A stretch of 43,629 nucleotides of DNA from Bacteroidaceae bacterium (lineage in GTDB: Bacteria > Bacteroidota > Bacteroidia > Bacteroidales > Bacteroidaceae). A model generated the notes under the pieces. It did no database searches. It was not told where the DNA came from and saw only the letters and a list, made by a program, of their open reading frames with translations. Made by a program: the position numbers and the translations under genes. The stretch covers positions 1-43,629 of the forward strand of contig JAKSLL010000023.1 of NCBI GenBank assembly GCA_024401215.1. The letters are read 5' to 3'. Positions 6,313-36,246 of this stretch are shown here, piece after piece; position 1 is the first letter of the stretch; each line of letters opens with the position of its first letter.

Positions 6313-6430
6313 CCAGCCGCCGCAGGCGGAGATAAAGCGCCACCGTGCCTTGCCCAAAGCCAATCCCTCACTGCGTTCTGCCCAAGGACGGTGGCGCCAA
6401 AGAAGAGTTCTTTACAATCACACATTTTTT
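6313..6430 (+). repeat. Operon-end hairpin element, copy A
   Basis: This is one of three related elements (others at 15161-15340 and 29884-30073). The main stem is 6337-6356 paired with 6379-6397 (GCGCCACCGT / ACGGTGGCGC plus a CCTTG/CAAGG block). It is preceded by a small hairpin CCGCCgcaGGCGG and followed by AAAGAAgagTTCTTT and a T run. It begins immediately after the stop codon of the gene at 4606. Copy A is the most divergent of the three. Confidence 0.65.
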
Positions 6431-9142: not shown

Positions 9143-9171
9143 GTGGAATTATAATTATATTGTAGCTAATT

Positions 9172-10185
9172 ATGGCAATCAACAACACAATTACAATCAC
9201 GAACGGACCTATTGACGTGAGCAAGGTCAATCAAGCTGTGCGTGAGCACGAGAATCTTCTCGTGACTATTCAGCAGGAGGAAGCAAACGATATCCTTCAG
9301 CACTTCACTCCTATGCCTGGAGTGAAGGATTCAATCACTCTTGGCAAGACTTTGCTCGGTCAGATCTCTCGCAAGTATACAGGAGAGTTCAAGGGTCAGG
9401 TGCAGCAGGGCGAGATTCAGCCAGAAGAGCTCAAGGTGTATCCATGCGTTATGGAAATCGCTGATGAGCCTGAGAACCTTCGTCGCATCTATGTGACTGA
9501 GGTGGCTGGAGGACTCAAGCCAGAAGAGCATCCGTTCGGTGTATGGCTCATAAACTGGGGCGTGAAGTCTGCTTCAAAAGAGCTTCACGATGTATTCCTT
9601 TCTGCGAAGTACGATTCTTCAGCTTCTAAGACATCGCTCAGCGATGCGTTCGATGGTCCTCTCACAAAGATTCAGCAGGCTATCACGGCAAAGAAGGTAT
9701 CTGCTGCTAACGGCAACTTGTACACAACAGGAGCACTCTCTTCAAGCAACATCGGCGACAAGCTTCTTGAAGCATGGCGCTCTATGCCTTCTGCTGCGCG
9801 CAAGCAGAACATGAAGCTCATGCTCTCTATGGAAGCAGGTGACAAGTATGACGACTGGATGGAAGCACAGGGCACATACATCATCGGATCAGGTAAGGAT
9901 GAGTATGGTGCTAAGTATCTTCGCGGTACTGGCGGCAAGGTGGAGATAGTGCGAATGAGCGGTGTGCCTGCGACGCAGATTGATTTCTTCTGGTTCACAA
10001 TCAAGGAGAATCAGCGCTACGGCTATGACCAGCCATCTGACATGAATCGTCTTATCGCTTTCAATAGCGGTAATCCATACTTGTTCACAGCTGCTGGCAA
10101 GTATGTTCTCGGAACTGCGTTCGTTTCTTACAACAAGTACTTGTTCCTCTGCAATGAGCAGGGCATGAACATTCCAAGTGCGTAA
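9172..10185 (+). CDS. Major capsid protein (HK97-fold candidate)
   Basis: 337 aa. It follows the protease/scaffold gene by 29 nt. Size, the N-terminal helical region, a central beta-rich body, and a C-terminal section ending FTAAGKYVLGTAFVSYNKYLFLCNEQGMNIP match Bacteroidales siphovirus major capsid proteins. Codon choice is strongly biased to a few frequent codons (GCT, AAG, CGC, CTC), as expected for an abundant protein. It is followed by a GC-rich hairpin. Confidence 0.85.
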   Translation: MAINNTITITNGPIDVSKVNQAVREHENLLVTIQQEEANDILQHFTPMPGVKDSITLGKTLLGQISRKYTGEFKGQVQQGEIQPEELKVYPCVMEIADEPENLRRIYVTEVAGGLKPEEHPFGVWLINWGVKSASKELHDVFLSAKYDSSASKTSLSDAFDGPLTKIQQAITAKKVSAANGNLYTTGALSSSNIGDKLLEAWRSMPSAARKQNMKLMLSMEAGDKYDDWMEAQGTYIIGSGKDEYGAKYLRGTGGKVEIVRMSGVPATQIDFFWFTIKENQRYGYDQPSDMNRLIAFNSGNPYLFTAAGKYVLGTAFVSYNKYLFLCNEQGMNIPSA

Positions 10186-10420
10186 GCTTTTTCATCTTTA
10201 TCATAGAGAAATTCGGGGTGGCAGACGAGTGCTGCCACCCAATTTCAGGAAGCACATCGAAGAATAGAGATTCAAAAACATTTTTTTTTAACAATCAGAA
10301 AAGTAATTTCTTTCGGTAATCTGTTTCTTTATATTCGTAAAATAAGCTTTTGGTGAAAAACAATTGTTCGAAGATGGTGCTCTGAAGTTTTTTTGTTGAA
10401 TAAATAATAAAGTAAAAAAT
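10186..10420 (+). other. 235-nt intergenic spacer with GC-rich hairpin
   Basis: Contains the inverted repeat GGGTGGCAG / CTGCCACCC within 10208-10246, extended by GAAATT/AATTTC. No T run follows, so it is better explained as an mRNA 3'-end stabiliser or processing site than a classical terminator. The rest is AT-rich and holds no supported gene or clear -7 box. Confidence 0.6.
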
Positions 10421-10987
10421 ATGGCAAATTGCGTAGATTTGGCTGATATCATGGAAGCAGTATCTTGTGCCGATAGCGACAACATCGCAGGAGTGGCACA
10501 AGAAATTGAGATTGGCTTCCACGAAGACGTTACGTCATATCCTGACAAACCAAGCTCTTCTTCAGGTGCAATGAGCATGGAAGATGCAGGTGAGCTGGAT
10601 GGCGATCTCACTATCAAGTCTGGTGCAAAGACTTGCAAGTTCACGTTTACGGACGGAACTGGCGAGTTCACAATGACGGAACAAGGTGAAGCTGGCGGCG
10701 AGAATGTGCTTTACAAGGCTACATTTGAGCGTGCGAAGATGTCGAGCGCAGTGTTCGGTTTCTTGAACGCTACACGTGGCCGCAAGCTGTGGGCAGTTGT
10801 GACAGACAAGAATGGCACGAAGTATCTTCTTGGAGACGACGTGAACCATGCTAAGCGTGTTGCGGCGGATGCTGCTACGACAGGCACAGACTCTGCAAGC
10901 GACGTTAACAAGGTTCCTGTGTCGATTGAGTATGTTGGTGCTCGCCATCTTGTCTTCACTGGCAATGTGATTAAGGCTGGCGCTTAA
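10421..10987 (+). CDS. Putative major tail tube protein
   Basis: 188 aa, acidic to neutral, rich in Gly/Thr/Ser beta segments (GDLTIKSGAKTCKFTFTDG, GEFTMTEQGEAGGENVLYKA), ending VPVSIEYVGARHLVFTGNVIK. Composition, position between capsid and terminase genes, and strong codon bias suggest an abundant tube or decoration protein. No motif decides between them. Confidence 0.6.
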   Translation: MANCVDLADIMEAVSCADSDNIAGVAQEIEIGFHEDVTSYPDKPSSSSGAMSMEDAGELDGDLTIKSGAKTCKFTFTDGTGEFTMTEQGEAGGENVLYKATFERAKMSSAVFGFLNATRGRKLWAVVTDKNGTKYLLGDDVNHAKRVAADAATTGTDSASDVNKVPVSIEYVGARHLVFTGNVIKAGA

Positions 10988-11011
10988 TTGCAAATTCTTT
11001 CATATAAACCC

Positions 11012-11054
11012 AAGGGGGCGTGTCGAAAAGCGACCCGTCCCCTTATTATTTTAC
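11012..11054 (+). terminator. Imperfect rho-independent terminator
   Basis: AAGGGG...TCG / CGA...CCCCTT stem with a GAAAAG-type loop (11012-11044) followed by ATTATTTT. It lies between the tube-like gene and the gene at 11059. A GTG reading frame starting at 11020 runs through the stem and is not a credible start. Confidence 0.55.
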
Positions 11055-11058
11055 AAGA

Positions 11059-11874
11059 ATGATAAACGTAGAATATCAAAAGAAAGCCATTGACTGGCTG
11101 AATAGCAAGCGTGACTTCGATGAAGGACTTGCAGTGTTGCGAGATTCGGGTTTCCGTCCGGGAGTGACGCAAACGCTAACTCGCAAGGGCAAGGAGATGA
11201 AAGGTGCCATGGAGCATCTGACGCATAATATTCGCATGCTCATTCGTGCGTATGGCGATGCAATTCTTGAAGAAGATACTGATGCGGAAATCGGTGTGTT
11301 CAATGGCGAGGAGTCTCCTGCGGACACGCCTGCCATTGAGGCAAAGTCTGGCATCCTCAGCGAGGTGGACTTGGGCGGCAATATCGGTGTTCTCATAAGA
11401 AAGTACGCTGATTTATATAAGAGACGTGAAGTTGCTTTCCGCAAGTTGAAGGAGATGGGCGATGCGAACGATGATGCAACTTGCGAAAAGAGAAAGCAGC
11501 TAAATCAAGAGATTGAGGAAAGCACGGATATGATGGAGCGCATCTATCCGCACTATAAGCTTTACAAGTCAGATGGCATACAGCCATCTGATGAAGATCT
11601 TTCTTCAATGGAGAACGAAGACAAGGAAGAAGATCAAGAAAAAAATGCCGATGAGGACTACGATGCTATGAGCAAGGAAGAACTAACTAAATTGTCCTAT
11701 AGCACGCAGCGAAAGATTAAGCGTGCTCAGAACATGCTGGAGTATCAGTGCGAGAATGAGCTGGATTCTCCTAATCCTATGCCGACTGGTCCTCGACGAG
11801 TTAAATACGAGACGAAAATAAATAAGCTTAAGCCAGTGCATGAGGCAATGCTTTATGCTCTCGCTAAAAAATAG
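11059..11874 (+). CDS. Hypothetical phage protein, helical and acidic
   Basis: 271 aa, begins MINVEYQKKAIDWLNSKRDF. Predominantly helical with an acidic low-complexity stretch (SSMENEDKEEDQEKNADED, ~190-208). Not recognised. The position in the head operon suggests an assembly or tail-chaperone-like role, which is inference. Confidence 0.7.
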   Translation: MINVEYQKKAIDWLNSKRDFDEGLAVLRDSGFRPGVTQTLTRKGKEMKGAMEHLTHNIRMLIRAYGDAILEEDTDAEIGVFNGEESPADTPAIEAKSGILSEVDLGGNIGVLIRKYADLYKRREVAFRKLKEMGDANDDATCEKRKQLNQEIEESTDMMERIYPHYKLYKSDGIQPSDEDLSSMENEDKEEDQEKNADEDYDAMSKEELTKLSYSTQRKIKRAQNMLEYQCENELDSPNPMPTGPRRVKYETKINKLKPVHEAMLYALAKK

Positions 11875-12515: not shown

Positions 12516-12765
12516 CCAGCTTACGGAATTAGGTAGGCGCATGGTTCCTCTGTACCTTATAGCTAAAGCATTGAAGGTGCCAGAGTTTGAATTGAAGGAA
12601 GAGCTGCGTGGGGATGGCGAAGTGAGCGATGCGTATTATGAAGGCTTCACACAGACTAAGATAGAGCTTAATGAGTCTATCATCAAGTCTGCTAAGAATG
12701 GTTCCAACCCTGCTCAGATGGAGTTGAAGAAACTCATAAAGCAAAGTGAAGATTATATTTCTTGA
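12487..12765 (+). CDS. Small terminase-like DNA-binding protein
   Basis: 92 aa. The N terminus (LSKEQLNQLTELGRRMVPLYLIAKALKVPEFELKEEL) reads as a helix-turn-helix, followed by AYYEGFTQTKIELNESIIKSAKNGSNPAQMELKKLI, the pattern typical of small phage terminase-type proteins (DNA-binding domain plus oligomerisation helix). It begins inside the preceding gene (29-nt overlap) and ends 2 nt before the next start. It probably recognises the packaging site together with the next protein; ATG at 12490 is an alternative start. Confidence 0.65.
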   Translation: MMNLSKEQLNQLTELGRRMVPLYLIAKALKVPEFELKEELRGDGEVSDAYYEGFTQTKIELNESIIKSAKNGSNPAQMELKKLIKQSEDYIS

Positions 12766-12767
12766 GT

Positions 12768-13364
12768 ATGGCAGGCAACAGTGTAATGAAGTTGAATTTT
12801 GAGATTATTCGTGCTCACATTCTGGATCCAGCGAATAATCCTCTGCCGTCGGACTGCAAGCAGCAGTTCGACTTGGTATGTGAATGCGGTAATCTGCTTC
12901 AGGAATATCCTGAGGATAGGCAGATAATGAAAGTGCTCCGTTCCAAATCTGGAACTTCGCACTTGTCTGAAACTTGCCTGCGCAATACAATAAAGCTTGC
13001 TCGGCAAGTGTATAAGTCGCGATTCGACTTTGACTGGGATTTCTGGAGAGCGTGGGAAATAAAGGATCAGGTCGATTTGGTGGCACGAGCAAAGAAGTCA
13101 GGTGACCTTAAGGCATGGAATGATGCAAAGAAAACGCTTCATTCACTGATTGGTGAGAAGCCGGCAACCGTGACAGATCCAAGGCTGAAGGAGAAGAGCA
13201 AGATAGTGATTACTGTCAATAACTATGGATCGAAGGATTCAAAACCTCGTGAGATGTCGCTTGATGATGTGCGTGATCTGAGTGAAGATGAATTTGAAGA
13301 AGTGTTTGACGGAGTGAATTCTGAGATTACGGTGGAACAGGCAGAGGCAATTATGAATTCATAA
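12768..13364 (+). CDS. Terminase-associated protein, possible small subunit
   Basis: 198 aa directly upstream of the large terminase. The N-terminal half is helical (PEDRQIMKVLRSKSGTSHLSETCLRNTIKLARQVYKSR), and a basic linker leads to an acidic C terminus (LDDVRDLSEDEFEEVFDG). The layout (DNA-binding start, acidic tail) is like terminase small subunits, but the gene at 12487 is equally good; the two may act together. Start chosen at ATG 12768 rather than TTG 12762. Confidence 0.6.
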   Translation: MAGNSVMKLNFEIIRAHILDPANNPLPSDCKQQFDLVCECGNLLQEYPEDRQIMKVLRSKSGTSHLSETCLRNTIKLARQVYKSRFDFDWDFWRAWEIKDQVDLVARAKKSGDLKAWNDAKKTLHSLIGEKPATVTDPRLKEKSKIVITVNNYGSKDSKPREMSLDDVRDLSEDEFEEVFDGVNSEITVEQAEAIMNS

Positions 13365-13381
13365 TTTATTCCTGGCAAAAA

Positions 13382-15106
13382 GTGAAAGATAAATACTTTG
13401 AAATAGATGTCAACGTGAACCCTGCTCAATTTCGCCTGATGACGCTTATGGCGAAATATACATACTGCGTATGGAGCCGTGGTACTGGCAAGTCGTGGAT
13501 AGTTGCTGCTTTCATAGATGAAATAATACGCACTATGCCACGATGCGTGATCACGTTGGCACAGGCAACGTATGGCCAGGCACTGACCAAGACGCTGCCA
13601 TCTACATTCAAGGCGCTCGAAGCATTCGGTTATGTACGGTATAATGAGAAAACTAAGCAAGGGGATTATGTGGTGTGCAGGACTCCTCCAGATGGATATC
13701 TGCGTCCTTATGAGCATATCATGGATTTCTCTCACTGCATTACTTTCAGCAACGGAACTTTGCTGTACATCCTTTCGCAGGATGGCAACAGCCGTGGTCC
13801 GAATGCTGATTTCAATATTACTGACGAGGCAATTACAATAAATAAGCAGAAGTTTGACGAGGAAGTTGCGCCAACGAATAGAGGCAATGAGCAGCTGTTT
13901 GGATCGCTGTCGAAACATCCGAAGCCACGCCATCATGGAGGACTTTTCGTGACTTCTGCTCCGTACGAGCCAGAGCAGAAGTGGATTCTGGAGCATGCGA
14001 GGTATTATGAAGAAGAGCGAGGCTATAATCTTATAGACAGGTGGAACTCTGTTGTGAAGCTGCAGATGCAGCTTATAGATGCTAAGTCGAAGAATGATGC
14101 TGCGCTGTTCAAAGATATCTGGAATGAATGTGTGCGTATAAGGCGCACAATTCAGCCTTTCGTGTCGAAAGATGGCGAGTTGTTCCATCTCGCTTCTATC
14201 TTTGATAACATCGCTAATGTGGGATTCTCGTACATTATGCGTGAGTATGCTATCATGGATAAACTCACGTTCATGGTTGAGATCCTGAACTTCATCAGCG
14301 ACAGGATAGAGGGATGCTATTACCACTTCAATGAGCATAACAAGTATTACAATGCTACAAATGACGTCTATATCCGTGAGTTCTCTGAGGATATTGACTT
14401 TAATTTCGACGCACTTGCAGATGGCAACTCGCTGTATGATGCAGACTGCAATGCTAATAAACCGTTGGAGCTTTGCTTTGACTGGGGAAGCAGGGCATCG
14501 TTCCTCGAGGTGGCGCAGCCATCTACGTACGATTTCGCTACTGATACGACATTCATTGATCGTGTTGTGGACAACACAATCAATGAATTTTACGCTAAGC
14601 GTGATGAGAATGATGACACTGAGGTAAATGTGATTATTGACCAGTTCTGCAATTACTACAGGCATCACGTAAACAAGACTGCGGTATTCTTTCGTGACAG
14701 ATATGGAGATATTCGTCATGCGAACTCTAAGAAGACGTACAATGAGATGGCGATAGAAAGGCTCATCAAGAATGGTTGGCAGGTGGAGCAGCGCACGCAT
14801 CCGGGAATAGAGCCTCCACAGCATGAGAAATACTTGCTGTGGAGCTATGTAACTGCTGAGAAGGATGAAAGGTTTCCGATTAAGCGATTCAATGCCGCAA
14901 AATGCAAGCACATCCTTCTGTCGATGAATAACACAAAGGTCAAAGAAGTGCAGGGAAAGTTCCAAAAGGACAAGTCAAGCGAGCGCAATAGTAGTATTGA
15001 CCCGCTCGATGCGACGCATTTTGGCGACGTGGTGGATAAAAGAATGTGGACGAAGTATGGGCATCTTATTAAGAAGAAGTACGACTTCGTGCCAGTCAGG
15101 GTGTAA
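13382..15106 (+). CDS. terL: Terminase large subunit
   Basis: 574 aa ATPase-nuclease that packages DNA into the prohead. Walker A SRGTGKS at 32-38, Walker B DFNITDEA at ~143-150. The C-terminal RNase H-like nuclease has acidic candidates in ELCFDWGS (~360), VNVIIDQF (~415) and SIDPLDATHFGD (~540). Starts at GTG 13382; the next in-frame ATG (13439) would cut close to the Walker A, so GTG is preferred. It closes the head/packaging operon and is followed by a terminator at 15161. A long antisense reading frame overlaps it and is judged an artefact. Confidence 0.93.
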   Translation: MKDKYFEIDVNVNPAQFRLMTLMAKYTYCVWSRGTGKSWIVAAFIDEIIRTMPRCVITLAQATYGQALTKTLPSTFKALEAFGYVRYNEKTKQGDYVVCRTPPDGYLRPYEHIMDFSHCITFSNGTLLYILSQDGNSRGPNADFNITDEAITINKQKFDEEVAPTNRGNEQLFGSLSKHPKPRHHGGLFVTSAPYEPEQKWILEHARYYEEERGYNLIDRWNSVVKLQMQLIDAKSKNDAALFKDIWNECVRIRRTIQPFVSKDGELFHLASIFDNIANVGFSYIMREYAIMDKLTFMVEILNFISDRIEGCYYHFNEHNKYYNATNDVYIREFSEDIDFNFDALADGNSLYDADCNANKPLELCFDWGSRASFLEVAQPSTYDFATDTTFIDRVVDNTINEFYAKRDENDDTEVNVIIDQFCNYYRHHVNKTAVFFRDRYGDIRHANSKKTYNEMAIERLIKNGWQVEQRTHPGIEPPQHEKYLLWSYVTAEKDERFPIKRFNAAKCKHILLSMNNTKVKEVQGKFQKDKSSERNSSIDPLDATHFGDVVDKRMWTKYGHLIKKKYDFVPVRV

Positions 15107-15160: not shown

Positions 15161-15192
15161 GGGCATCGCTGTGAAGCGGTGCTCATTTTTTT
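15161..15192 (+). terminator. Rho-independent terminator after terL
   Basis: Ten-base-pair stem (GGGCATCGCT / AGCGGTGCTC with G-U pairs) closed by a GTGA tetraloop and followed by ATTTTTTT. The AGCGGTGCTCATTTTTT part recurs as AGCGGTGTTCATTTTTT at 29889-29907, and both are followed by the same hairpin element. Confidence 0.85.
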
Positions 15193-15340
15193 CGATTCTT
15201 GACAAGCTTCTGCAAACAGATGGAAAGACTCGCCTCCGTTCCTTGCCCGATGCCGCACCCATCTCGCTTTGCTCGATTCGCCCAAGGGCGGAGGCGAGAA
15301 AAAGGTGTAATCGGCTCGCCGATTACGAGTGTTTAGGACT
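15193..15340 (+). repeat. Operon-end hairpin element, copy B
   Basis: A 70-bp imperfect palindrome at 15229-15298 (CTCGCCTCCG / CGGAGGCGAG ends, CCTTG/CAAGG inner block) nearly identical in sequence and equal in length to 29950-30019. It is followed by AAAGGTGT, a hairpin AATCGGctcgCCGATT (15309-15324) and TTTAGGACT (15332-15340). Copy C has the same layout but a different paired hairpin (GTTGTCAG/CTGACAAC), so the pairing is kept while the bases change. Confidence 0.75.
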
Positions 15341-16774: not shown

Positions 16775-16817
16775 AGATGTATTAATATTAGTGTTGTTAT
16801 TTGTTTTATTTCTTATG

Positions 16818-16848
16818 CAAAGGTAATGATTATTCTTGAAATATGCAA
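16818..16848 (-). promoter_or_regulatory. Promoter of the minus-strand three-gene operon
   Basis: -7 box TACCTTTG (complement of 16818-16825) and -33 TTGC (complement of 16845-16848) separated by 19 nt, the same boxes and spacing as the divergent promoter at 16935-16965. Confidence 0.75.
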
Positions 16849-16934
16849 GCATTTATCAAGATATTTGGGGAGGGAAATGTTATTTATATCGCATCTAAAT
16901 AAGGTTTCTGCGTGCAAAATAATGCACATAACAG

Positions 16935-16965
16935 TTGCATAAGTGAACATTTATGTGTAACTTTG
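16935..16965 (+). promoter_or_regulatory. Strong promoter of the 17161-18199 operon
   Basis: TTGC (16935-16938), 19 nt, TAACTTTG (16958-16965). The predicted start of transcription falls on the first base of the repeat GCGAAACTCAAA (16970-16981), so that repeat begins the leader RNA. Confidence 0.78.
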
Positions 16966-16969
16966 CAGT

Positions 16970-17160
16970 GCGAAACTCAAATATAAATTGACAAAGATAT
17001 GGCATAGTCATATTGTGGTTTAGCCTATAGGGTGAATACTATATATATGAATACGGCTGTTCTTCCCAAGACATAGTTTTTTATGTTTGAGTTTCGCGAC
17101 ACGGGGAGAGCAGCTGTTGTTTTTTTTGCTCACGTGTCAAATAGCGAAACTCAAACAAAT
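16970..17160 (+). promoter_or_regulatory. 190-nt structured leader with three copies of one repeat
   Basis: Segment 1 GCGAAACTCAAA (16970-16981), segment 2 GTTTGAGTTTCGC (17085-17097) and segment 3 GCGAAACTCAAAC (17144-17156). Segment 2 can pair with either 1 or 3. The 2:3 stem is extended by GACACG (17098-17103) / CGTGTC (17133-17138) and ends 4 nt before the ATG at 17161. This is the geometry of a leader with two mutually exclusive folds that masks or frees the start region; the alternatives are an invertible segment or an operator set. Confidence 0.6.
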
Positions 17161-29883: not shown

Positions 29884-29908
29884 AATGAAGCGGTGTTCAT
29901 TTTTTTTA
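29884..29908 (+). terminator. Second terminator in tandem
   Basis: AATGAA / TTCATT stem with eight Ts. Its AGCGGTGTTCATTTTTT part matches the end of the terL terminator at 15175-15191. Confidence 0.6.
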
Positions 29909-30073
29909 TAAGTGAAATCTTTACCAGCTGCCGCAAGAGGAAATTAACCACTCGCCTCCGTACCTTGCCCGATGCCACACCCATCTCGCTTTGCTCGATT
30001 CGCCCAAGGACGGAGGCGAGGGAAAGAGGTGTGTTGTCAGGACTGACAACGATTTTATAAAATGATTTAGGAC
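29909..30073 (+). repeat. Operon-end hairpin element, copy C
   Basis: 70-bp imperfect palindrome 29950-30019 (CTCGCCTCCG / CGGAGGCGAG), nearly identical to copy B, followed by AAAGAGGTGT, the hairpin GTTGTCAGgaCTGACAAC (30032-30049) and TTTAGGACT (30065-30073). The upstream ACCAGCTGCCGCAAGAGG resembles the start of copy A. Confidence 0.75.
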
Positions 30074-30682
30074 TGCAAAAAATTTGCAATAAAAATGTGT
30101 AAGCGGTATCAGTTCAGCATTATGGCACTTCTTCGGCGTTCCGGAATGCTGAGCAGGATTATTTGACCCACCCATCAACGTGCATCGATGCAGTGCCGTA
30201 TTGCTCATTAGCATGTCTTGCACGGCTGCATGCTGCATGCTGTGCTTGCGATGCCATATCAAAAAACGCACCGGCAATTATCCTGCAACACAAAGTCAAG
30301 ACAAATGCAATGTCGGCAAGGTGATTCGCGAACACTTCGGCGAAGATTTCGCGTGCAGAGCAACATCGCGTTGCTGACGCATCAGTCTTGACTTTGCTAA
30401 TGCTGGATATTTGCGGATAATTATCAGCGCACGAGGCATTGCAAGCACAGCATGCGACATTCTGCTACGTGCAGACGCTATGGCGATACGGCACTGCATC
30501 AATTTTCAACACGCACCCACCCGTATTTAAAGCCTCTCAACAGAAATGTTATGACATATCTTTGAGAGAGAGAGGTATTGTGTTAGGCACATTGCATTCT
30601 ATCTGCTCAGGTCATCAAGAATTTGCTGATCTGGGCAGATTGAACACAAAGAGCCTAAAGGAAGTCCCACCCATAATTAGAC
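30074..30682 (+). ncRNA. Candidate large structured RNA or cruciform region
   Basis: No reading frame here is convincing. The main structure is a ~315-nt inverted repeat: GATGCAGTGCCGTAT (30187-30201) / ATACGGCACTGCATC (30486-30500), GCATGCTGTGCTTGC (30235-30249) / GCAAGCACAGCATGC (30441-30455) and CAAAGTCAAGAC (30291-30302) / GTCTTGACTTTG (30385-30396), with a terminal hairpin CGCGAA...TTCGCG at 30327-30353. Smaller stems flank it (CAGCATT/AATGCTG near 30115-30152; TTAGGC/GCCTAA with an inner ATCTGC/GCAGAT near 30584-30659). CCCACCC recurs at 30167, 30525 and 30666. No -7 box is clear upstream. It ends with a terminator at 30683. Confidence 0.45.
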
Positions 30683-30732: not shown

Positions 30733-31018
30733 ATTTGGTAAGCACATCTTTTGTTCGCATGAACAACGATGAGCCTACTTTAACCCCTCCCCAAGCCCCA
30801 ATATGCTGAATATCCACAAAGCAGGATATTCTACATATTGCCATATTGCTTGAATAGAAATTCAAGCAATTTTAATGTTTGTTGCGATGTGCATAGGTTG
30901 AGATTAGTGGCGATTGGCAGCATTCTTTATTTGCTGGAGATTTCCATTGCTTTTGGATGTTGCTGTACGTCAAAAGATTCTTATTTTCTTGCGATTTGCT
31001 AATATGTATTATGGTGAT
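30733..31018 (+). other. Spacer, possibly the far end of the mirrored cassette
   Basis: No supported gene. It contains the hairpin TTGCTTGAAT / ATTCAAGCAA (30846-30869) with a T-rich tail on the plus strand. On the minus strand, the part near 30880-31010 may be a strongly decayed copy of the start of the gene at 32362 (shared short blocks around AATAAGAATC and ATGG), but I cannot establish that by eye. Confidence 0.4.
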
Positions 31019-31043
31019 TATTCGGAGAAACCGAATTTCTATC

Positions 31044-31284
31044 TTATGCGTATGCTGCTTCAGTTGATTATGTAATGCGGCATTCTGCTTTATTCTTGTC
31101 GCGAGTATTGAAGATGGAAATCTCATGAGGGATCTGTTTGCTTGTCTGTTTCTGAGGCGTGCTAATCTGATGGCTGACGTGGAGTCGAGCAGAACTATTA
31201 TTAGCGAGATTTGTGAGCCTTGACTCTCCATACCTTTTGAAAGCTATTTTGAATGATTTGGTTTAGTTGTTTCTGGGTCTTCAT
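31044..31284 (-). pseudogene. Decayed inverted copy of the gene at 32017
   Basis: On the minus strand, an ATG at 31284 preceded by CGCAAT opens MKTQKQLNQIIQNSFQKVWR then VKAHKSR and a stop, matching METQNNKKSI...KVWRVKVLGSRSK of the intact gene. Further on, 31083-31111 is identical over 29 nt to 32231-32259, and the ACGCATAAGATA stop region followed by a small hairpin matches the end of the intact gene. Internal stops and deletions make it non-coding. Confidence 0.85.
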
Positions 31285-31319
31285 ATTGCGATATAATTAA
31301 AATATAATATATGTATAGT

Positions 31320-31496
31320 GAATAGCCGAAGTAAGCGAGTGTTGAAAAGGGTGTATCTGCGTCGTCAGTATGTCTAATTGAGCGCAAACATTGTTGATGA
31401 TTTGAGTCCTATACATATATGGAGTGCCAATCTTGCAAAGAGAACTGCATTGTCGCTTATGCTACGTGATGATGATTTCTTTTTGATGTGTTCCAT
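31320..31496 (-). pseudogene. Decayed inverted copy of the gene at 31763
   Basis: Reading leftward from the ATG at 31496, blocks such as CAAaaAGAAATC, CGTAGCA, ACAAtGCAG, CTCTTtGC, AGGACTCAaATCaTCAACAA, GACGAcGCAGA and GGCTAtTCACT match the intact gene 31763-31981 in order. Several stops break the frame. Order and spacing relative to the copy at 31044 mirror the intact gene pair. Confidence 0.82.
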
Positions 31497-31542
31497 ATGT
31501 GTGTTTTTTCGGGCGGAGTAACACTTAGTCTCAATTCCACTG

Positions 31543-31722
31543 CAAAGTTAGTTACGAACATACCTGAAAACGGGCGTACAAAACAAGGGTTTCTCCCTGA
31601 TGAATGTAATTATTTTTATAATTTTTTCCTAACCGCCAACAAAAAATTAACCAGGCTAAGATCCTCTTAAAAATAATTACATTCACCCTAATTCTGGTAC
31701 TTATCTCACACTTGAAAAGCAG
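31543..31722. promoter_or_regulatory. Quasi-palindromic promoter hairpin 1 (31763 cassette)
   Basis: Central stem TGAATGTAATTATTTTTA (31601-31618) / its complement (31668-31685), loop containing CTAACCGCCAAC (31629-31640). On the minus strand TAACTTTG (31543-31550) is a -7 box followed by GCAGTG. The mirrored plus-strand position reads TTGAAAAGCAGTG (31712-31724): GCAGTG is kept, the -7 core is not. Flanking bases (TTCaGGTA / TTCtGGTA, ...ACTCC) also correspond. Confidence 0.65.
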
Positions 31723-31762
31723 TGTAATTAAAACAAAGTATAACTCCTAAAAAACAACAATC

Positions 31763-31981
31763 ATGGCTTACGTTTCAACAGAAATCAAAAATCTCGTAGC
31801 AATTTTCAGCAACAACGCAGCACTCTTCGCTACAATGGTACTTCCAATGTATTCTGCAGCAGAGCTTCAGGGACTCATATCTTCAACAAAGTTCGAGCTT
31901 CAAAATCAGATGATGGACGAAGACGATGCAGACACACTCTTCTCATTCCAGCTCACACTTGAGAATGCTCTCAGAGGCTAA
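31763..31981 (+). CDS. Hypothetical 72-residue protein
   Basis: Helical protein (AYVSTEIKNLVAIFSNNAAL...), acidic middle (MMDEDDADTLF). Unassigned. A degraded inverted copy exists at 31320-31496. Next gene starts 35 nt downstream. No standard -7 box precedes it on the plus strand. Neighbours (ardA, phosphoribosyltransferase) suggest a role early after DNA entry. Confidence 0.68.
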   Translation: MAYVSTEIKNLVAIFSNNAALFATMVLPMYSAAELQGLISSTKFELQNQMMDEDDADTLFSFQLTLENALRG

Positions 31982-32016
31982 TTCACTTGGTTAATAACTA
32001 TAAAAAATAACGCAAT

Positions 32017-32307
32017 ATGGAAACTCAGAACAACAAAAAATCAATCATCGCAGAAATGACAATTTCAGAAAAAGGTAATAAGGTATGGAGAGTTAAGGTT
32101 CTTGGATCTCGCTCTAAAAAAGAGGTAGGTTACTGCAAGACTCCACTGTCGGCTATCAGGTTCGCTTACATCCTCAAGAAGCAGACTGGCGCAACTATAG
32201 ATTCGGATTGCATGGATTTCCTTGTGTTCCTCAATACTCGCGACAAGAATAAAGCAGAAGATAAGGCTGCAGAGAGTGGAGAACAAACTGAAGTAGCAAA
32301 CGCATAA
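32017..32307 (+). CDS. Hypothetical 96-residue protein
   Basis: Begins METQNNKKSIIAEM; central KVWRVKVLGSRSKKEVGYC and an acidic tail (NKAEDKAAESGEQTE). No recognised family; the compact basic/beta middle could bind nucleic acid (weak inference). A decayed inverted copy is at 31044-31284. Followed by a tight terminator at 32314. Confidence 0.68.
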   Translation: METQNNKKSIIAEMTISEKGNKVWRVKVLGSRSKKEVGYCKTPLSAIRFAYILKKQTGATIDSDCMDFLVFLNTRDKNKAEDKAAESGEQTEVANA

Positions 32308-32313
32308 GATAAT

Positions 32314-32331
32314 AGCCCCTTCGGGGGCTTT
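32314..32331 (+). terminator. Short rho-independent terminator
   Basis: AGCCCC-TTCG-GGGGCT with UUCG tetraloop followed by TTAAATTAAT. The mirrored cassette has a corresponding hairpin at 31019-31036 (ATTCGG/CCGAAT). Confidence 0.72.
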
Positions 32332-32361
32332 AAATTAATATAAACCACTAAATAAGAAATT

Positions 32362-32619
32362 ATGGAAAAGAATAACAATCATTATCAAGTTTCTTGCTTT
32401 ATTTATTACATGGCTAATGCGTGGTGCAAGGAAGAAGCAGTCAAGGTGTTTGGCAAAATCATGGGTGAGCACTTCTGGTACAAGTGGTGTACTGCAGGAG
32501 AGTATCCAGATTTGTGTACAATGAAATTGTACTACGATATGACTGCTATGTATCGTGAAATGCTGGTTAGCAGAGCTATTGAGGTATATGAAAATAGCGA
32601 ATGGATAAATAACCAGTAA
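32362..32619 (+). CDS. Hypothetical 85-residue protein
   Basis: MEKNNNHYQVSCFIYYMANA start; aromatic-rich (FWYKWCTAGEYPD). Unassigned. It lies between two hairpin terminators (32314 and 32651) and may rely on partial read-through. Confidence 0.65.
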   Translation: MEKNNNHYQVSCFIYYMANAWCKEEAVKVFGKIMGEHFWYKWCTAGEYPDLCTMKLYYDMTAMYREMLVSRAIEVYENSEWINNQ

Positions 32620-32650
32620 TAAAGCCCATTCTGGGAATCATAATTATCGT

Positions 32651-32682
32651 ATGGCTACATTAATTTGTAGCCATTTTTTTTA
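32651..32682 (+). terminator. Rho-independent terminator
   Basis: ATGGCTAC / GTAGCCAT stem with an 8-nt loop, then eight Ts. It marks the outer limit of the mirrored ardA copy. Confidence 0.85.
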
Positions 32683-32717
32683 TGGTACCATTGCAGGAGT
32701 CTGGAGGCTTGGTTGAT

Positions 32718-33085
32718 TATGTTTGTAAGAAGTAGATAGAAAAAGGTTCTTGCGAATGCATGGAACTCCTGGATGCAGTCGCAGGTTTCAGAACTTGCAA
32801 GTATTCTTCTGATTAGTATTATTTAGAGAGAAGCGTAATCACGACCATAGAAGCGTGCTTTCTCGCTTCATCTACTCGCATTGCTCGTGCAGCTTGTTGA
32901 AAAAGATGTGTGATGCATGTGCTGTGATGCTATCGTGGAAAGTTCTTGCATAATCGCTGAAGAAGATCGAGGCAGAAGAAGCCTTGTAACTGGGCAACAC
33001 ACATACCTACGAATGGGCCTTCATCAACACAAAGAACTGGGTGAGTGTAATAATCAACGGCAGTTGCCTTTCTGCTTGTAGCCAT
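32718..33085 (-). pseudogene. Decayed inverted copy of ardA
   Basis: On the minus strand from the ATG at 33085 the sequence follows ardA (33307-33849) through the whole gene. Matching blocks include GTTATGG, CTCACCCAG, GGGCTTCTT-like, TTCAACAAGcTGCaCGAG, GGTCGTGATTACGCT, GTTCTgAAACcT, CTTTTtCTAT and, at the end, TAATCAACCAAgCCTCCAG / CAATGG. Large deletions and several stops make it non-functional. It is about 370 nt against 543 in the intact gene. Confidence 0.87.
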
Positions 33086-33120
33086 AACAAATTGAGGACA
33101 GATAATATAGAATTAGACTG

Positions 33121-33270
33121 CAAAGGTATATCGTTATCTCCACATGCATACGGATGCTACGCTTGGCTGAAAGGATTATTTTACAACTTTTCCCTAACCG
33201 CCAACGAAAACTCGAAAAATAATCCTTTCAGTCCTATGCAAGTGGAAAGAACAACCTTAATAGGCAGTAT
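33121..33270. promoter_or_regulatory. Quasi-palindromic promoter hairpin 2 (ardA)
   Basis: Central stem CTGAAAGGATTATTTT (33167-33182) / AAAATAATCCTTTCAG (33216-33231); loop CTAACCGCCAAC (33194-33205). The midpoint (33199) nearly equals the midpoint of the two mirrored ATGs (33085 and 33307; 33196). Minus-strand -7 TACCTTTGCAGTcTAATTC (33110-33128) corresponds to TTAATAGGCAGTaTAATTC (33257-33275) in front of ardA: everything but the -7 core pairs. TATGCAtGTGGA / TATGCAaGTGGA also match. Confidence 0.7.
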
Positions 33271-33306
33271 AATTCACTTAATTATCAATCCTAAATTTAT
33301 AATGTT

Positions 33307-33849
33307 ATGGTTGCATTAGACAGAAAGATCAAACTTGCCGATTACGAATTGGTAGATGACGCTCACCCAGCTCTCTATGTTGGTACTTATGGAAAGTACA
33401 ATGAAGGTTCACTCGATGGTATGTGGGTTGACCTCACAAAGTTCGACAGTTACGAGGGCTTCTTGAGGTTCTGCCACGAACTTCATTCAGACGAATATGA
33501 TCCAGAGTTCATGATGCAAGATTACATGAACTTCCCACGAGATCTCTACAGCGAATGCATCGGAGAAGATACGTTCAACAAGTTGCTCGAGTATTGCGAG
33601 ATGGACGATGAAGACAGAGAAATGCTGGAAGCGTACGCAAGCATCCATGGTCGTGATTACGCTACTCTCGATAAAGCAAAAAATGATTTCATAGGAAAAT
33701 ACGAATCAGAGAAAGACTTTGCGGAAGAAGTTCTTGAAACTTACGACAACATCCCTGAGTTTATCAGAGGATATATAGATATTGAAGCATTCACAAGAGA
33801 CCTTTTCTATGATTATCATTTTGAAAACGGATTCGTTTTCAGTTGTTAA
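33307..33849 (+). CDS. ardA: Antirestriction protein ArdA
   Basis: 180 aa, acidic. PALYVGTYGKYNEGSLDGMW then VDLTKFDSYEGFLRFCHELH and SDEYDPEFMMQDYMNFP are the hallmark N-terminal blocks of ArdA, a DNA mimic that blocks type I restriction enzymes. Length and the highly acidic C-terminal half (DEDREMLEAYAS..., ESEKDFAEEVLETYDN) agree with the family. In conjugative plasmids ardA is expressed as DNA enters the cell, often from single-stranded promoters. Here it is preceded by the mirrored promoter hairpin and has no intact -7 box on its own strand. Confidence 0.9.
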   Translation: MVALDRKIKLADYELVDDAHPALYVGTYGKYNEGSLDGMWVDLTKFDSYEGFLRFCHELHSDEYDPEFMMQDYMNFPRDLYSECIGEDTFNKLLEYCEMDDEDREMLEAYASIHGRDYATLDKAKNDFIGKYESEKDFAEEVLETYDNIPEFIRGYIDIEAFTRDLFYDYHFENGFVFSC

Positions 33850-33865
33850 TCAACCAATCCTCCAG

Positions 33866-33888
33866 GCCCCAGCAATGGGGCTTTTTTT
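33866..33888 (+). terminator. Rho-independent terminator after ardA
   Basis: GCCCC-agcaat-GGGGC followed by seven Ts. Confidence 0.88.
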
Positions 33889-33992
33889 ATCCTCAATCGT
33901 CGGAAGGGCTTTTTATCATAGCGCAAGCATCATTCTGCTGAATTGCTTGCAAAATCTCTCTATATATAATAAAGTATAAGCATGGGCGTTTT

Positions 33993-34083
33993 CTGTCAAC
34001 AATCTGATGCTTCAATGTAGAAAAAGTATTTGACGTGTATTCGCTGGTATTTTAGCAATCTCCTATCGGCTGAATTTATATGC
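33993..34083 (-). pseudogene. Inverted partial copy of the start of the 34241 gene
   Basis: Minus-strand reading from 34083: GCATATAAATTC, then CACGTCAAATACTTTTTCTA and CATTGAAGCATCaGAT, matching GCATATAAATTC and GTCAAAgAtCTTTTCTACAT then TGAAGCATCTGAT (34221-34310) of the intact gene and its leader. The copy encodes ...VKYFFYIEASD against VKDLFYIEASD. Homology fades beyond 33993. Confidence 0.8.
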
Positions 34084-34221
34084 AAAGTTAAGGTCATCAC
34101 GTATGGCGAAAGGTTAAATAGCATTGCCCGCACTTTTTTATAAAATTCAAGAATTTTAAGTGCAAAGTAAAAAAGTCCTGGCAAACCTTGCGCTTAACTT
34201 ATGATGATATGTTAATGAAGG
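34083..34221. promoter_or_regulatory. Quasi-palindromic promoter hairpin 3 (34241 gene)
   Basis: Central hairpin TAAAATTC-aa-GAATTTTA (34141-34158, midpoint 34149.5) lies exactly between the mirrored GCATATAAATTC arms (midpoint 34152). Minus strand: TTAACTTTGCATAT (-7 box at 34083-34090). Plus strand: TTAATGAAGGCATAT (34212-34226). The -7 core is mispaired while both flanks pair. The CTAACCGCCAAC loop motif is not present here. Confidence 0.62.
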
Positions 34222-34240
34222 CATATAAATTCTATTCGAT

Positions 34241-34882
34241 ATGAGACAGCGTAAAATACATAAAATTGTAAATAAGAAGGTCAAAGATCTTTTCTACATT
34301 GAAGCATCTGATTTTGTTGACGACTATCAGATGTATGAAATGATGTCGATGCCATCACTTCTTCTTGTACAGTACGAAACACCTATGCATTATTTCTTTG
34401 AATATATATCAAGAAAAATCAAAGAAGTTTCTTGCTATCATGAATTTGCAAGACAATTCGTCCTTAATTTTAAGGACGGAAATGCAGAAGATGCTTCATG
34501 GGCAGCGAAACTGATTTGCTTATACTTGAAGTCAATAGGACTTTACGGACAAGAATATACATTCATGACCGTACCTGCAAGCAGTCAAGTTAAGCAATCT
34601 GTTCGCTATGAAAACTTCATGGAAGAAGTTTGTAATACATCAAAGATGAACAACGGCTACGATCTTGTTAATGTAACAGAAGAACGCAAAGCGGTCCACA
34701 AAGGTGGAAGCCGCAATTTGCAGAATTATATCATTAACGAAAACGTAGCCGGAAAAAAGGTTGTTCTCTTTGATGATGTATATACAACAGGAAAGTCTTG
34801 GACTACTTTTGCGTACAAACTCGAGAGTATGGGCGCAGAGGTAGTCCAAGGCGTTTTCCTCGCAGAAGCTATTATGAAATAA
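34241..34882 (+). CDS. Type I phosphoribosyltransferase-like protein
   Basis: 213 aa. The PRPP-binding motif VVLFDDVYTTGKS (~174-186) is the standard type I PRTase signature (hydrophobic-DDVxTTGxT/S). An upstream TVPASSQVKQSVRYENFMEE segment resembles the ComF/phosphoribosyltransferase loop before the active site. An N-terminal ~90-residue helical part is extra. Its substrate is unknown; in mobile elements such PRTases may modify nucleotides or serve defence or counter-defence. It follows ardA and has its own mirrored promoter hairpin. Confidence 0.78.
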   Translation: MRQRKIHKIVNKKVKDLFYIEASDFVDDYQMYEMMSMPSLLLVQYETPMHYFFEYISRKIKEVSCYHEFARQFVLNFKDGNAEDASWAAKLICLYLKSIGLYGQEYTFMTVPASSQVKQSVRYENFMEEVCNTSKMNNGYDLVNVTEERKAVHKGGSRNLQNYIINENVAGKKVVLFDDVYTTGKSWTTFAYKLESMGAEVVQGVFLAEAIMK

Positions 34883-34936
34883 ATAATCTGTTGGATTGTT
34901 GGTCAGTTGGAGACCAAAATCAACAAATTATTTTTT
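34882..34936. terminator. Bidirectional terminator between PRTase and integrase
   Basis: AATAATcTGTTG ... TTGGTC-loop-GACCAA ... CAACAaATTATT stem; Ts follow on the plus strand. Its end overlaps the integrase stop codon region. Confidence 0.6.
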
Positions 34937-36109
34937 CATCTCGTAATTTAGGAGCTCAGGTTGTGCTTTTAATTGGTTCTTTCCTGCATAGTGATTGGTA
35001 ACGGCAACGCTGGAGTGACGAGCTTGATCTTTGGCTACATTTAGGCCTACATTGTTAATCATGTCAGTGATGCCAGTGTCTTTGAGGCTGTAGAACTGGT
35101 AGCAGTCAGGCAAATTCAGTGCTGTTCGCATTTTGGACCATCTTTCTCGAAAGATGCGTCCTTGCGCCATTTTTTCGGATGGCACGAACTTGCTGCCAAA
35201 CAAATAGTATTGTCCGGGAGAGTTGAAGGTGCCACGCTCGACCATCTGCAATAACAGAACTTTTGGCAAGGTAACCTTGCCATCGTGACGGTTCTTGCTT
35301 ATGGTGCTGCTCACGAATACTGTTTGTTCAGAAATGTTGATGTCGATGATGCGAATCTTTACAAGCTCATTCGGGCGAATGAGAGTATAGTATGCGAATT
35401 GAACGGCGAAAAGAAAATCAGGATCGTTTTCTTTCAAGTATGCTTCTATCTTCGAGAAAGCGTCCTTGTCAACCACCTTGCGGTGTTTGTCGCCGTTAGG
35501 TAATGACTTTATCGTCGTGCAAGGATTACTGCCGATAAAGCCACGGTCACACATCCATGTTCCTAAGCTGCACAGCCATCCAAGATAGTTGTTGCGAGTT
35601 CTGGGGCTTGTATCTCTGTCGAGATAGATGTAATCCAAGAACTGCTCGCACCAGTTCTTATCATATTGATAAGCATAGTGCAGTCGATGGCTGCATTCGT
35701 AAGAGGTTAGCATTTTCAGACGTGAAGTATAATCAACATACGTTTTATCCTTCATAACTCCATCTTTCTTCGACTTCAGGAGATATTTGCAGTATTGCTC
35801 CAGAACATCTGAAAATGAAGTCCAGCTTTTGTGTGTGGAATCTTCTATCAGGGGATTCCAGCCTTCAGCAAGCTTACGGTTTACTTCATCCCTGTATCGA
35901 AGAGCGGCGGCGTCGCGCTCCTTAGCAGTAGCGAAACAGTTGAACTTCGTTCTAATTCGTTTAAGTTTAGGTTGACCATCAATCACAGATTGAGGGTCAA
36001 GCACGTAAAAGTAAACAAACTTTACTTTACCAGATTTAGCGTAAATCGCTGATTTATATCTTATTATTTCAGCGGAAAAAGATTTACGCGTGCGCAAAGA
36101 ATTACACAT
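34928..36109 (-). CDS. int: Tyrosine integrase (Bacteroidales KDTG type)
   Basis: 393 aa from ATG 36109 (MCNSLRTRKSF); the longer frame from 36199 is less likely. Residues 1-90: arm-binding and basic region; ~95-195: SAM-like core-binding domain (TSFSDVLEQYCKYLL...); ~215-385: catalytic domain with Arg245 (LIRPNEL), Lys near 278, Lys343 in YSLKDTG (replacing the HxLRH box, as common in Bacteroidales integrases), His365 (ARHSS) and nucleophile Tyr374 (TNHY). It catalyses integration/excision at the attP candidate 36203-36265, which lies directly upstream. Confidence 0.93.
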   Translation of the reverse strand: MCNSLRTRKSFSAEIIRYKSAIYAKSGKVKFVYFYVLDPQSVIDGQPKLKRIRTKFNCFATAKERDAAALRYRDEVNRKLAEGWNPLIEDSTHKSWTSFSDVLEQYCKYLLKSKKDGVMKDKTYVDYTSRLKMLTSYECSHRLHYAYQYDKNWCEQFLDYIYLDRDTSPRTRNNYLGWLCSLGTWMCDRGFIGSNPCTTIKSLPNGDKHRKVVDKDAFSKIEAYLKENDPDFLFAVQFAYYTLIRPNELVKIRIIDINISEQTVFVSSTISKNRHDGKVTLPKVLLLQMVERGTFNSPGQYYLFGSKFVPSEKMAQGRIFRERWSKMRTALNLPDCYQFYSLKDTGITDMINNVGLNVAKDQARHSSVAVTNHYAGKNQLKAQPELLNYEMKK

Positions 36110-36202
36110 TTTTTTTACATTGTTCGCCACGGCAACCAATGCGAAGAATTGATAATCCAAAAAATCTTGTCTCGTTATTGTCCCGAAAGGGTTTAACAAG
36201 TA

Positions 36203-36237
36203 ACGGATAAGTTACTAATATTTAGTTACTTATCCGT
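36203..36237. other. Near-perfect palindrome beside int (core or arm site)
   Basis: ACGGATAAGTTACTAA (36203-36218) / TTAGTTACTTATCCGT (36222-36237): 15 of 16 positions pair around a 3-nt spacer. Position between int and the tRNA-like segment suggests an integrase- or excisionase-binding site; it is also a possible terminator for the integrase region. Confidence 0.5.
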
Positions 36238-36246
36238 CATTTAGTT

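Follow-up and report, generated by a model that had tools for sequence, protein, structure and literature searches.

Quasi-palindromes over ardA and neighbouring genes of a Bacteroidota phage-like element: candidate promoters activated by single-stranded DNA

The stretch of DNA analysed here (the window) is an entire contig of 43,629 nucleotides (nt) from a Bacteroidaceae bacterium (JAKSLL010000023.1, our G000:C146), from an assembly of 4.35 Mb in 234 contigs. Comparison of the window with its own reverse complement by blastn finds four adjacent quasi-palindromes, each centred on itself, with E values from 5e-64 to 1e-20 (Table 1). Three of them carry genes: a two-gene operon, here called W1-W2; ardA; and a phosphoribosyltransferase-like (PRTase) gene. 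The intact units (W1 and W2, ardA, and the start of the PRTase gene) all lie in the right arm on the plus strand, and the left arms are shorter and decayed. The arms of these three run head-to-head and are 60-65% identical (E 1e-20 to 5e-64), which argues that the palindromes are not fold-back artefacts of assembly. An extra arm pair widens the ardA palindrome to 32688-33878, beyond the ardA stop codon. No intact protein can be read from the mirror copies of the window, which have stops in every frame and give only short broken matches.

The ardA product matches PF07275 (E 3.7e-25, 89.8 bits, cut-off 27), and our ArdA profile, A8, matches PDB entry 2w82 ('ORF18 / Antirestriction protein ArdA'); on sequence similarity it is a member of the ArdA antirestriction proteins. 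A PDB search at E 1 gives no relative for the W2 family.

A sequence-only reading of the window had described three successive loci, each preceded by a decayed inverted copy of what follows, and blastn confirms all three (E 5e-64, 6e-34 and 1e-20). The midpoints it gave, 31643, 33199 and 34150, compare with measured values of 31634, 33199 and 34149/34150, and the -7 boxes that it saw in the inverted arms are indeed there, on the minus strand. The mirroring covers whole cistrons for W1-W2 and ardA, and for the PRTase gene only the first ~27 codons. The fourth palindrome, which has no -7 box, had not been described.

Table 1 Quasi-palindromes of the window and the features within them
Feature	Position	Strand	Remarks
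Fourth quasi-palindrome, no -7 box	30184-30503	none	blastn E 1e-29
W1-W2 quasi-palindrome	31040-32311		blastn E 5e-64; midpoint 31634
Mirror (promoter) arm of the W1-W2 operon	31040-31633	minus	W1 and W2 in inverted, decayed form
-7 box TAACTTTG in the W1-W2 mirror arm	31543-31550	minus	-33 TTG absent
W1-W2 gene arm	31635-32311	plus	first 300 nt without TAnnTTTG
Gene W1	31763-31981	plus	72 amino acids
Gene W2	32017-32307	plus	96 amino acids
Terminator-like GC hairpin	32314-32329	plus	directly beyond the W1-W2 gene arm; direct reading
ardA quasi-palindrome, blast core	32826-33669		blastn E 6e-34; midpoint 33199
Mirror (promoter) arm of ardA	32688-33198	minus	blast core starts at 32826
-7 box TACCTTTG in the ardA mirror arm	33121-33128	minus	-33 TTG absent
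ardA gene arm	33200-33878	plus	includes the start of a terminator-like hairpin (direct reading)
ardA	33307-33849	plus	180 amino acids; PF07275
PRTase quasi-palindrome	33995-34321		blastn E 1e-20; midpoint 34149/34150
Mirror (promoter) arm of the PRTase gene start	33995-34149	minus	
-7 box TAACTTTG in the PRTase mirror arm	34083-34090	minus	-33 TTG absent
PRTase gene arm	34150-34321	plus	5' region and first ~27 codons
PRTase-like gene	34241-34882	plus	PF00156 E 4e-4, 20.2 bits, under the 26.3-bit cut-off

The same design recurs in relatives. The loci are related and the counts are not independent; the three sets of ardA loci (viral, family-genome and named-genome) overlap in part, and what counts as a palindrome depends on the E-value thresholds. 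A profile search for ArdA gave 313 viral relatives, and the analysis went on with the 80 best. Fifteen of these 80 loci have a palindrome of 1.2-1.6 kb over ardA at E <=1e-5 (11 once near-copies are merged), and seven others (L069, L074, L079, L086, L088, L089 and L112) have a palindrome of 305-391 nt just upstream of the gene. Among the named genomes, 72 of 80 ardA loci were usable (4 duplicates and 4 short loci were dropped), and of these 11 have whole-gene and 5 promoter-only palindromes; the palindrome-bearing genomes include those of Prevotellamassilia timonensis Marseille-P2831T, Leyella stercorea DSM 18206 and Prevotella sp. 885. In the family, ArdA is present in 31 of 301 genomes, the window's own counted. 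A profile for W2 found 57 loci, 20 of which have a palindrome of 0.8-1.6 kb with a -7 box, centred 380-480 nt ahead of the W2 match. Both types can occur together: L094 carries an ardA-type and a W1-W2-type palindrome, and the locus G064, which appears to be Prevotellamassilia timonensis NZ_LT629842.1, has palindromes of 1513 nt around ardA and of 1561 nt around an operon of two genes, the second of which encodes a homologue of W2.

In a set of 52 palindromes, 81% of the aligned bases are complementary and the arms are ~135-840 nt long. Whole-gene ardA mirrors end 21-82 nt beyond the stop codon in 20 of 21 entries (a few being copies of one locus); the exception is L068, where the mirror ends 104 nt short of it. 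Single-protein scans with ArdA or PRTase gave no match in the viral contigs, which alignment-based searches did match, and blastn of the region against phages gave no match. With tblastn, ArdA matched 8 phage records and 4919 plasmid records, among which one plasmid stretch was examined.

The position of the promoter boxes is strongly asymmetric. We take TAnnTTTG (-7) and TTG (-33) to be the Bacteroidota promoter boxes. In a list of 46 palindromes that still contains duplicates, TAnnTTTG occurs no further than 130 nt from the tip in 32, and always in a single arm. With duplicates dropped, together with L060, which was left out of the counts as a messy repeat, the box lies in the arm opposite the gene in all 24 box-bearing palindromes, and never in both arms. 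In L020 ardA is on the minus strand and the box moves to the other arm, so that gene and box are both flipped. All 20 W1-W2 palindromes likewise have the box in the mirror arm. Counted by locus, palindromic viral ardA loci have an antisense -7 box in 17/17 cases (450 nt) and a sense box in 0/17 (260 nt); this count used 61 of the 80 loci, 13 duplicates and 6 with short upstream sequence being dropped. The palindromic named-genome loci give 16/16 and 0/16, with the antisense box at 90-340 nt in 14 of the 16 and far-upstream start calls in the other two. For the family genomes (19 loci from the 31 ArdA-positive genomes) the figures are 18/19 and 1/19. As background, 400 other open reading frames (ORFs) with free upstream sequence have an antisense box at 130-340 nt in 63 cases and a sense box within 420 nt in 155.

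Within the box, the pairing of the arms is disturbed at one place. The A of the -7 box is unmatched (by mismatch or gap) in 38 of 42 aligned arm pairs and matched in 4, whereas the edges are matched, the first T in 39/42 and the last G in 42/42. This bears out, in relatives, the earlier observation that the box is mispaired between paired flanks. Predicted DNA folds of 44 tip regions leave the same A unpaired in 82%; a TTG lies 17-21 nt from the -7 box in 32 of these 44 tips and is fully paired in 30 of the 32. In many of the alignments the gene arm appears to carry additional bases that separate the TTG from the position of the box.

The mirror arm also follows its own gene. In 13 of 13 comparisons between related palindromes, the gene arms are more alike than the mirror arms. 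In 12 chosen pairs, 730 columns covary between the arms against 56 that anti-covary, significantly so in 11 of the 12 taken singly, neither pairs nor sites being independent. The 535 covarying columns within ORFs fall at codon positions 1, 2 and 3 in the numbers 113, 132 and 290; they are thus mostly third positions, which argues for DNA complementarity rather than protein. Selection, correction by template switching or repeated re-copying could each produce such tracking in these sequences.

Folding predictions for the minus strand, suggested by the sequence-only reading, give z-scores against dinucleotide shuffles of -16.0 (W1-W2), -17.9 (ardA) and -11.8 (PRTase), with 400/455, 383/426 and 109/112 pairs, respectively, running from arm to arm. 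The fourth palindrome has -12.2 and the Prevotellamassilia locus -39.8; the six single-strand folds range from -11.8 to -39.8, with 8 shuffles each. The plus strand would fold much as the minus strand does. A pair of hairpins comes out 283 to 1276 kcal/mol worse than the duplex, and the structure therefore needs single strands. Cruciform extrusion, offered earlier as one route, is rejected as implausible, being ~280 to 1280 kcal/mol worse than the duplex. Among viral ardA loci where blastn detects no palindrome, those with an antisense -7 box (9 of 14 folded) have z from -0.5 to -7.2 (<=-3.4 in 5/9) and those without it (9 of 30 folded) from +1.6 to -3.5 (<=-3.0 in 2/9). In the family-genome set, palindromic or not, z is <=-2.9 in 16 of the 19 loci.

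On the basis of the anatomy, the recurrence, the placement of the box, the conserved mispairing and the covariation of arm and gene, we consider it probable, from the sequences, that each palindrome is a transcription switch that would stay off unless the minus strand is single-stranded. The best reading of the analysis would be a promoter activated by single-stranded DNA (ssDNA), similar to Frpo and ssi of conjugative plasmids and built with Bacteroidota boxes. The minus strand would fold on itself, so that the mirror arm supplies the non-template strand with the boxes and the complement of the intact gene supplies the template. The -33 region would be double-stranded, and the mispaired critical A of the -7 box would make melting easier. 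Host RNA polymerase would then transcribe ardA, W1-W2 or PRTase into genuine mRNA. With the DNA in duplex form, the gene arm has no -7 box and the promoter of the mirror arm would point away, leaving the gene silent from this site. The mirror arm that covers a whole cistron would probably serve as a surrogate non-template strand, displacing the nascent RNA and permitting translation. RNA made on bare ssDNA tends to remain hybridised, as work on the M13 primer reportedly showed, and a surrogate strand would for this reason be needed to free the mRNA. Candidate sources of ssDNA in a phage would be resection of the entering end, for example a resected minus strand at the virion end, or replication. 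The transcription, the role as surrogate strand and the ssDNA stage are what we infer from these features. An ssDNA promoter had been proposed in the sequence-only reading; the box opposite the gene (24/24 and 20/20), the mispaired A and the tracking of the gene by its mirror all agree with it, and it left the whole-cistron hairpins unexplained. More tentatively, and with rather less than even confidence, we propose that Bacteroidota tailed phages carry self-complementary genes, complete transcription units in which selection maintains the mirror arm as a stand-in for the non-template strand; these would allow anti-defence proteins to be made from single-stranded phage DNA just after entry or end resection.

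Several observations weigh against an ssDNA promoter. It was recognised at the outset that relatives keeping the gene without its mirror would count against it, and there appear to be such relatives: blastn detects no palindrome at 56 of the 72 named-genome ardA loci, although 35 of these 56 have an antisense -7 box 90-340 nt upstream. The scanner also finds none at the one enterobacterial plasmid ardA tried as a positive control (Klebsiella oxytoca), a locus that follows another annotated antirestriction gene and is uninformative here. Fourteen of the 46 palindromes have no -7 box. They include L030, an exception to the -7 rule, where a strong palindrome at 9840-11400 covers a W1-W2-type operon and CAACTTTG replaces TAnnTTTG near the usual place in the mirror arm. 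L138 and L140 carry an additional TAnnTTTG in the gene arm, at another position, and the A of the box is matched in L020. A -33 TTG is absent from all three arms of the window and from 9 of the other 41. The closest pairs track weakly or not at all (L063/L068 6:2, p 0.29; L119/L120 0:0), L119/L120 being too close for tracking to be judged. The relaxase families PF03432 and PF03389 are each found in 0 of 18 viral records (the sets partly overlap), and we know of no ssDNA stage in tailed phages.

The proteins of the window include an integrase, tape measure, tail fibre, head maturation protease and primase, and a weak terminase match (Pfam E 0.0078; phrog_2 4e-5), which is also matched by the terminase-like protein of L174. 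By gene content the window is best read as a tailed, temperate phage whose host belongs to the Bacteroidota. There is no relaxase among the 24 Pfam families matched by 44 ORFs of the window, and one weak MbeD/MobD-like match (E 1.7e-4). A head protease is found in 16 of 17 whole-gene loci (viral, window and G064; near-copies included), the seventeenth being G064, which has a Clp-type gene on an adjoining stretch. The named-genome whole-gene loci have the head protease in 8/11 and none of the markers tried in 3/11, and the W1-W2 loci an L174-like terminase in 12/20 and none of the markers in 8/20, both counts covering limited stretches. A phrog_2 terminase is present in 14 of 20 viral records. 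Thus all whole-cistron mirrors with readable context are in phage-like loci. Two ardA loci (G261:C60 and G013:C1) share their contig with a relaxase ~14-15 kb away and look like integrative and conjugative elements (ICEs); both have only a short upstream palindrome. The palindrome of G013 has E 7e-7 in blastn and was not found again by a later scan, yet its fold has z -5.3. The promoter-only form therefore seems common to phages and conjugative elements, in partial agreement with the conjugative link suggested earlier. It is possible that a conjugative element was the evolutionary source of the phage palindromes; such an origin is disfavoured by the 0/18 for each relaxase family in the viral records.

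We have considered four other explanations. In the first, the promoter of the mirror arm is active in normal duplex DNA and drives a leftward non-coding RNA resembling the gene, a decoy or regulator, to which the palindrome is incidental. The -7 box does lie in the mirror arm, often with a -33 TTG (32/44), and at the far end of the G064 mirror arm a mirrored terminator-like hairpin can be read. Such an RNA needs no pairing, yet the arm follows the base changes of the gene and the mismatch centres on the A of the box; moreover, mirror arms that are less alike than gene arms in 13/13 comparisons are unlike a conserved RNA. We regard this explanation as unlikely. We give slightly less credence to hairpins that are mainly single-strand priming sites for synthesis of the complementary strand, with gene expression secondary. 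Frpo was reportedly described by Masai and Arai in 1997 as both promoter and primer site, and some phages have a separate structured element nearby (see below). A primer should not, however, need a mirror reaching beyond the stop codon, and the sites recur at ardA and W1-W2.

A purely mutational origin, in which fold-back template switching creates a head-to-head duplicate of a gene that then decays neutrally, appears slightly more doubtful still. The tips of two window palindromes have a small hairpin motif in common, seen as a 37-nt direct repeat (31609-31645 and 33175-33210), the mirror arm is shorter than the gene arm in 49/52 palindromes, as a decaying copy should be, L063/L068 tracks little, and correction by template switching could likewise yield covariation. 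On the other hand, identity stays within ~58-72% in palindromes that bear a -7 box or cover a gene, and no fresh copies are seen; the same genes, similar centre distances and similar end points recur; the box is retained in one arm and absent from the other; and box, bubble and spacing are largely seen to be conserved in independent lineages. Least probable is a hairpin of RNA, in which the mirror leader of a plus-strand transcript begun upstream pairs with the mRNA and thereby silences the gene: the similar folding expected of both strands speaks for it, but plus-strand wobble is not in excess in the 52 palindromes (GT 867 against AC 1079; GT above AC in 17, below in 29 and tied in 6), and it leaves the placement of the -7 box and its bubble without a role.

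A second structured element, noted in a single group of phages, follows W2 at a distance of ~1.1-2.1 kb. It has a strand-specific core of ~130 nt within a 230-300-nt palindrome, with conserved motifs GTTCG and CACGTGCCA..GGCA..CAC, and occurs in L160, L161, L175, L183, L167, L155, L153, L152, L147, L172, L177, L168 and L141. A covariance model (R1), whose own loci include L156 (7046-7184), detects the element in 13 of the 62 sources searched (E <1e-20). Part of the fourth palindrome of the window, 30291-30391, matches the element weakly and on the same strand, at 14.8 bits and E 6e-4 when 701 nt are searched. No Rfam match was found in the five sources tried. The element is possibly a priming or nicking origin.

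Some further features were seen. A predicted one-sided hairpin promoter precedes another gene, an 86-amino-acid ORF, in L064 (3007-3394) and L065 (2986-3360), and in L030, a Prevotellamassilia element, two Abi_2 genes (8628-9581 and 12757-13773) flank the palindromic two-gene operon. In the window a weaker palindrome at 16785-17000 (E 1.5e-5) has TACCTTTG/TAACTTTG readable in both arms and resembles an ordinary divergent promoter, unlike the one-sided hairpins. Right after the PRTase gene, on the minus strand, comes a 423-amino-acid ORF (34928-36199), probably the DDE_Tnp_1 transposase of the window, with a short palindrome at 36198-36242. Direct repeats of ~90-150 nt, 65-80% identical, lie at 15172-15308, 29886-30032 and 6309-6396.

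If the ssDNA promoter is real, self-complementary genes would imply an unrecognised ssDNA phase in tailed phages with double-stranded DNA (dsDNA), and the presence of such promoter logic in terminase-bearing phages raises the question of how and when one strand is exposed. It would suggest how anti-restriction genes could be kept off in the lysogen yet expressed at entry, and the whole-cistron mirrors would be a natural form of self-complementary gene. The signature, a -7 box in the opposite arm with a mispaired A, could be used to look for ssDNA promoters in ICEs of Bacteroidota, and the named genomes with palindromes make the design directly testable.

Promoters of this kind are known from conjugative plasmids, where the DNA enters single-stranded, and in the Frpo/ssi family the -10 is mispaired. 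As described in two reports (PMC9849209, PMC11541004), Frpo of the F plasmid and ssi of ColIb-P9 rebuild -35 and -10 boxes in one folded strand, are active in ssDNA and shut off once it becomes duplex, and form a stem-loop ahead of leading-region genes, ardA being expressed early in ColIb-P9. Samuel et al. describe a search of 50-350 bp regulatory regions of conjugative elements. The palindromes described here are similar in having an imperfect hairpin immediately upstream of an entry gene, boxes that folding of the strand would restore, the gene serving as template (in the window the -7 only, with no -33 TTG), and a mispaired box, here at the A of -7. They differ in having Bacteroidota -33/-7 boxes, in belonging to tailed phages with terminase and head protease rather than to a conjugative leading region, and in a hairpin that often spans a whole cistron rather than the promoter only. 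Among the matches listed in open-licence PMC, no paper dealt with ssDNA promoters in Bacteroidota or, N4-like ones apart, in tailed phages; the host phylum, the type of promoter, the tailed phages and the cistron-long arms are new. The early promoters of phage N4, likewise a tailed phage with dsDNA, are small DNA hairpins that are recognised in single-stranded form. N4 relies for them on its own virion RNA polymerase, and the hairpins are tiny, whereas here the boxes are of host type and the arms reach ~135-840 nt. At the complementary-strand origin of M13, a filamentous ssDNA phage, host RNA polymerase recognises a hairpin of folded ssDNA, as is proposed here; the product there is a primer, not an mRNA. 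Finally, self-complementary vectors of adeno-associated virus carry a gene and its complement on one strand, which folds to a transcribable duplex. Those vectors are engineered and near-perfect, and the palindromes described here are natural, imperfect and asymmetric in their promoter.

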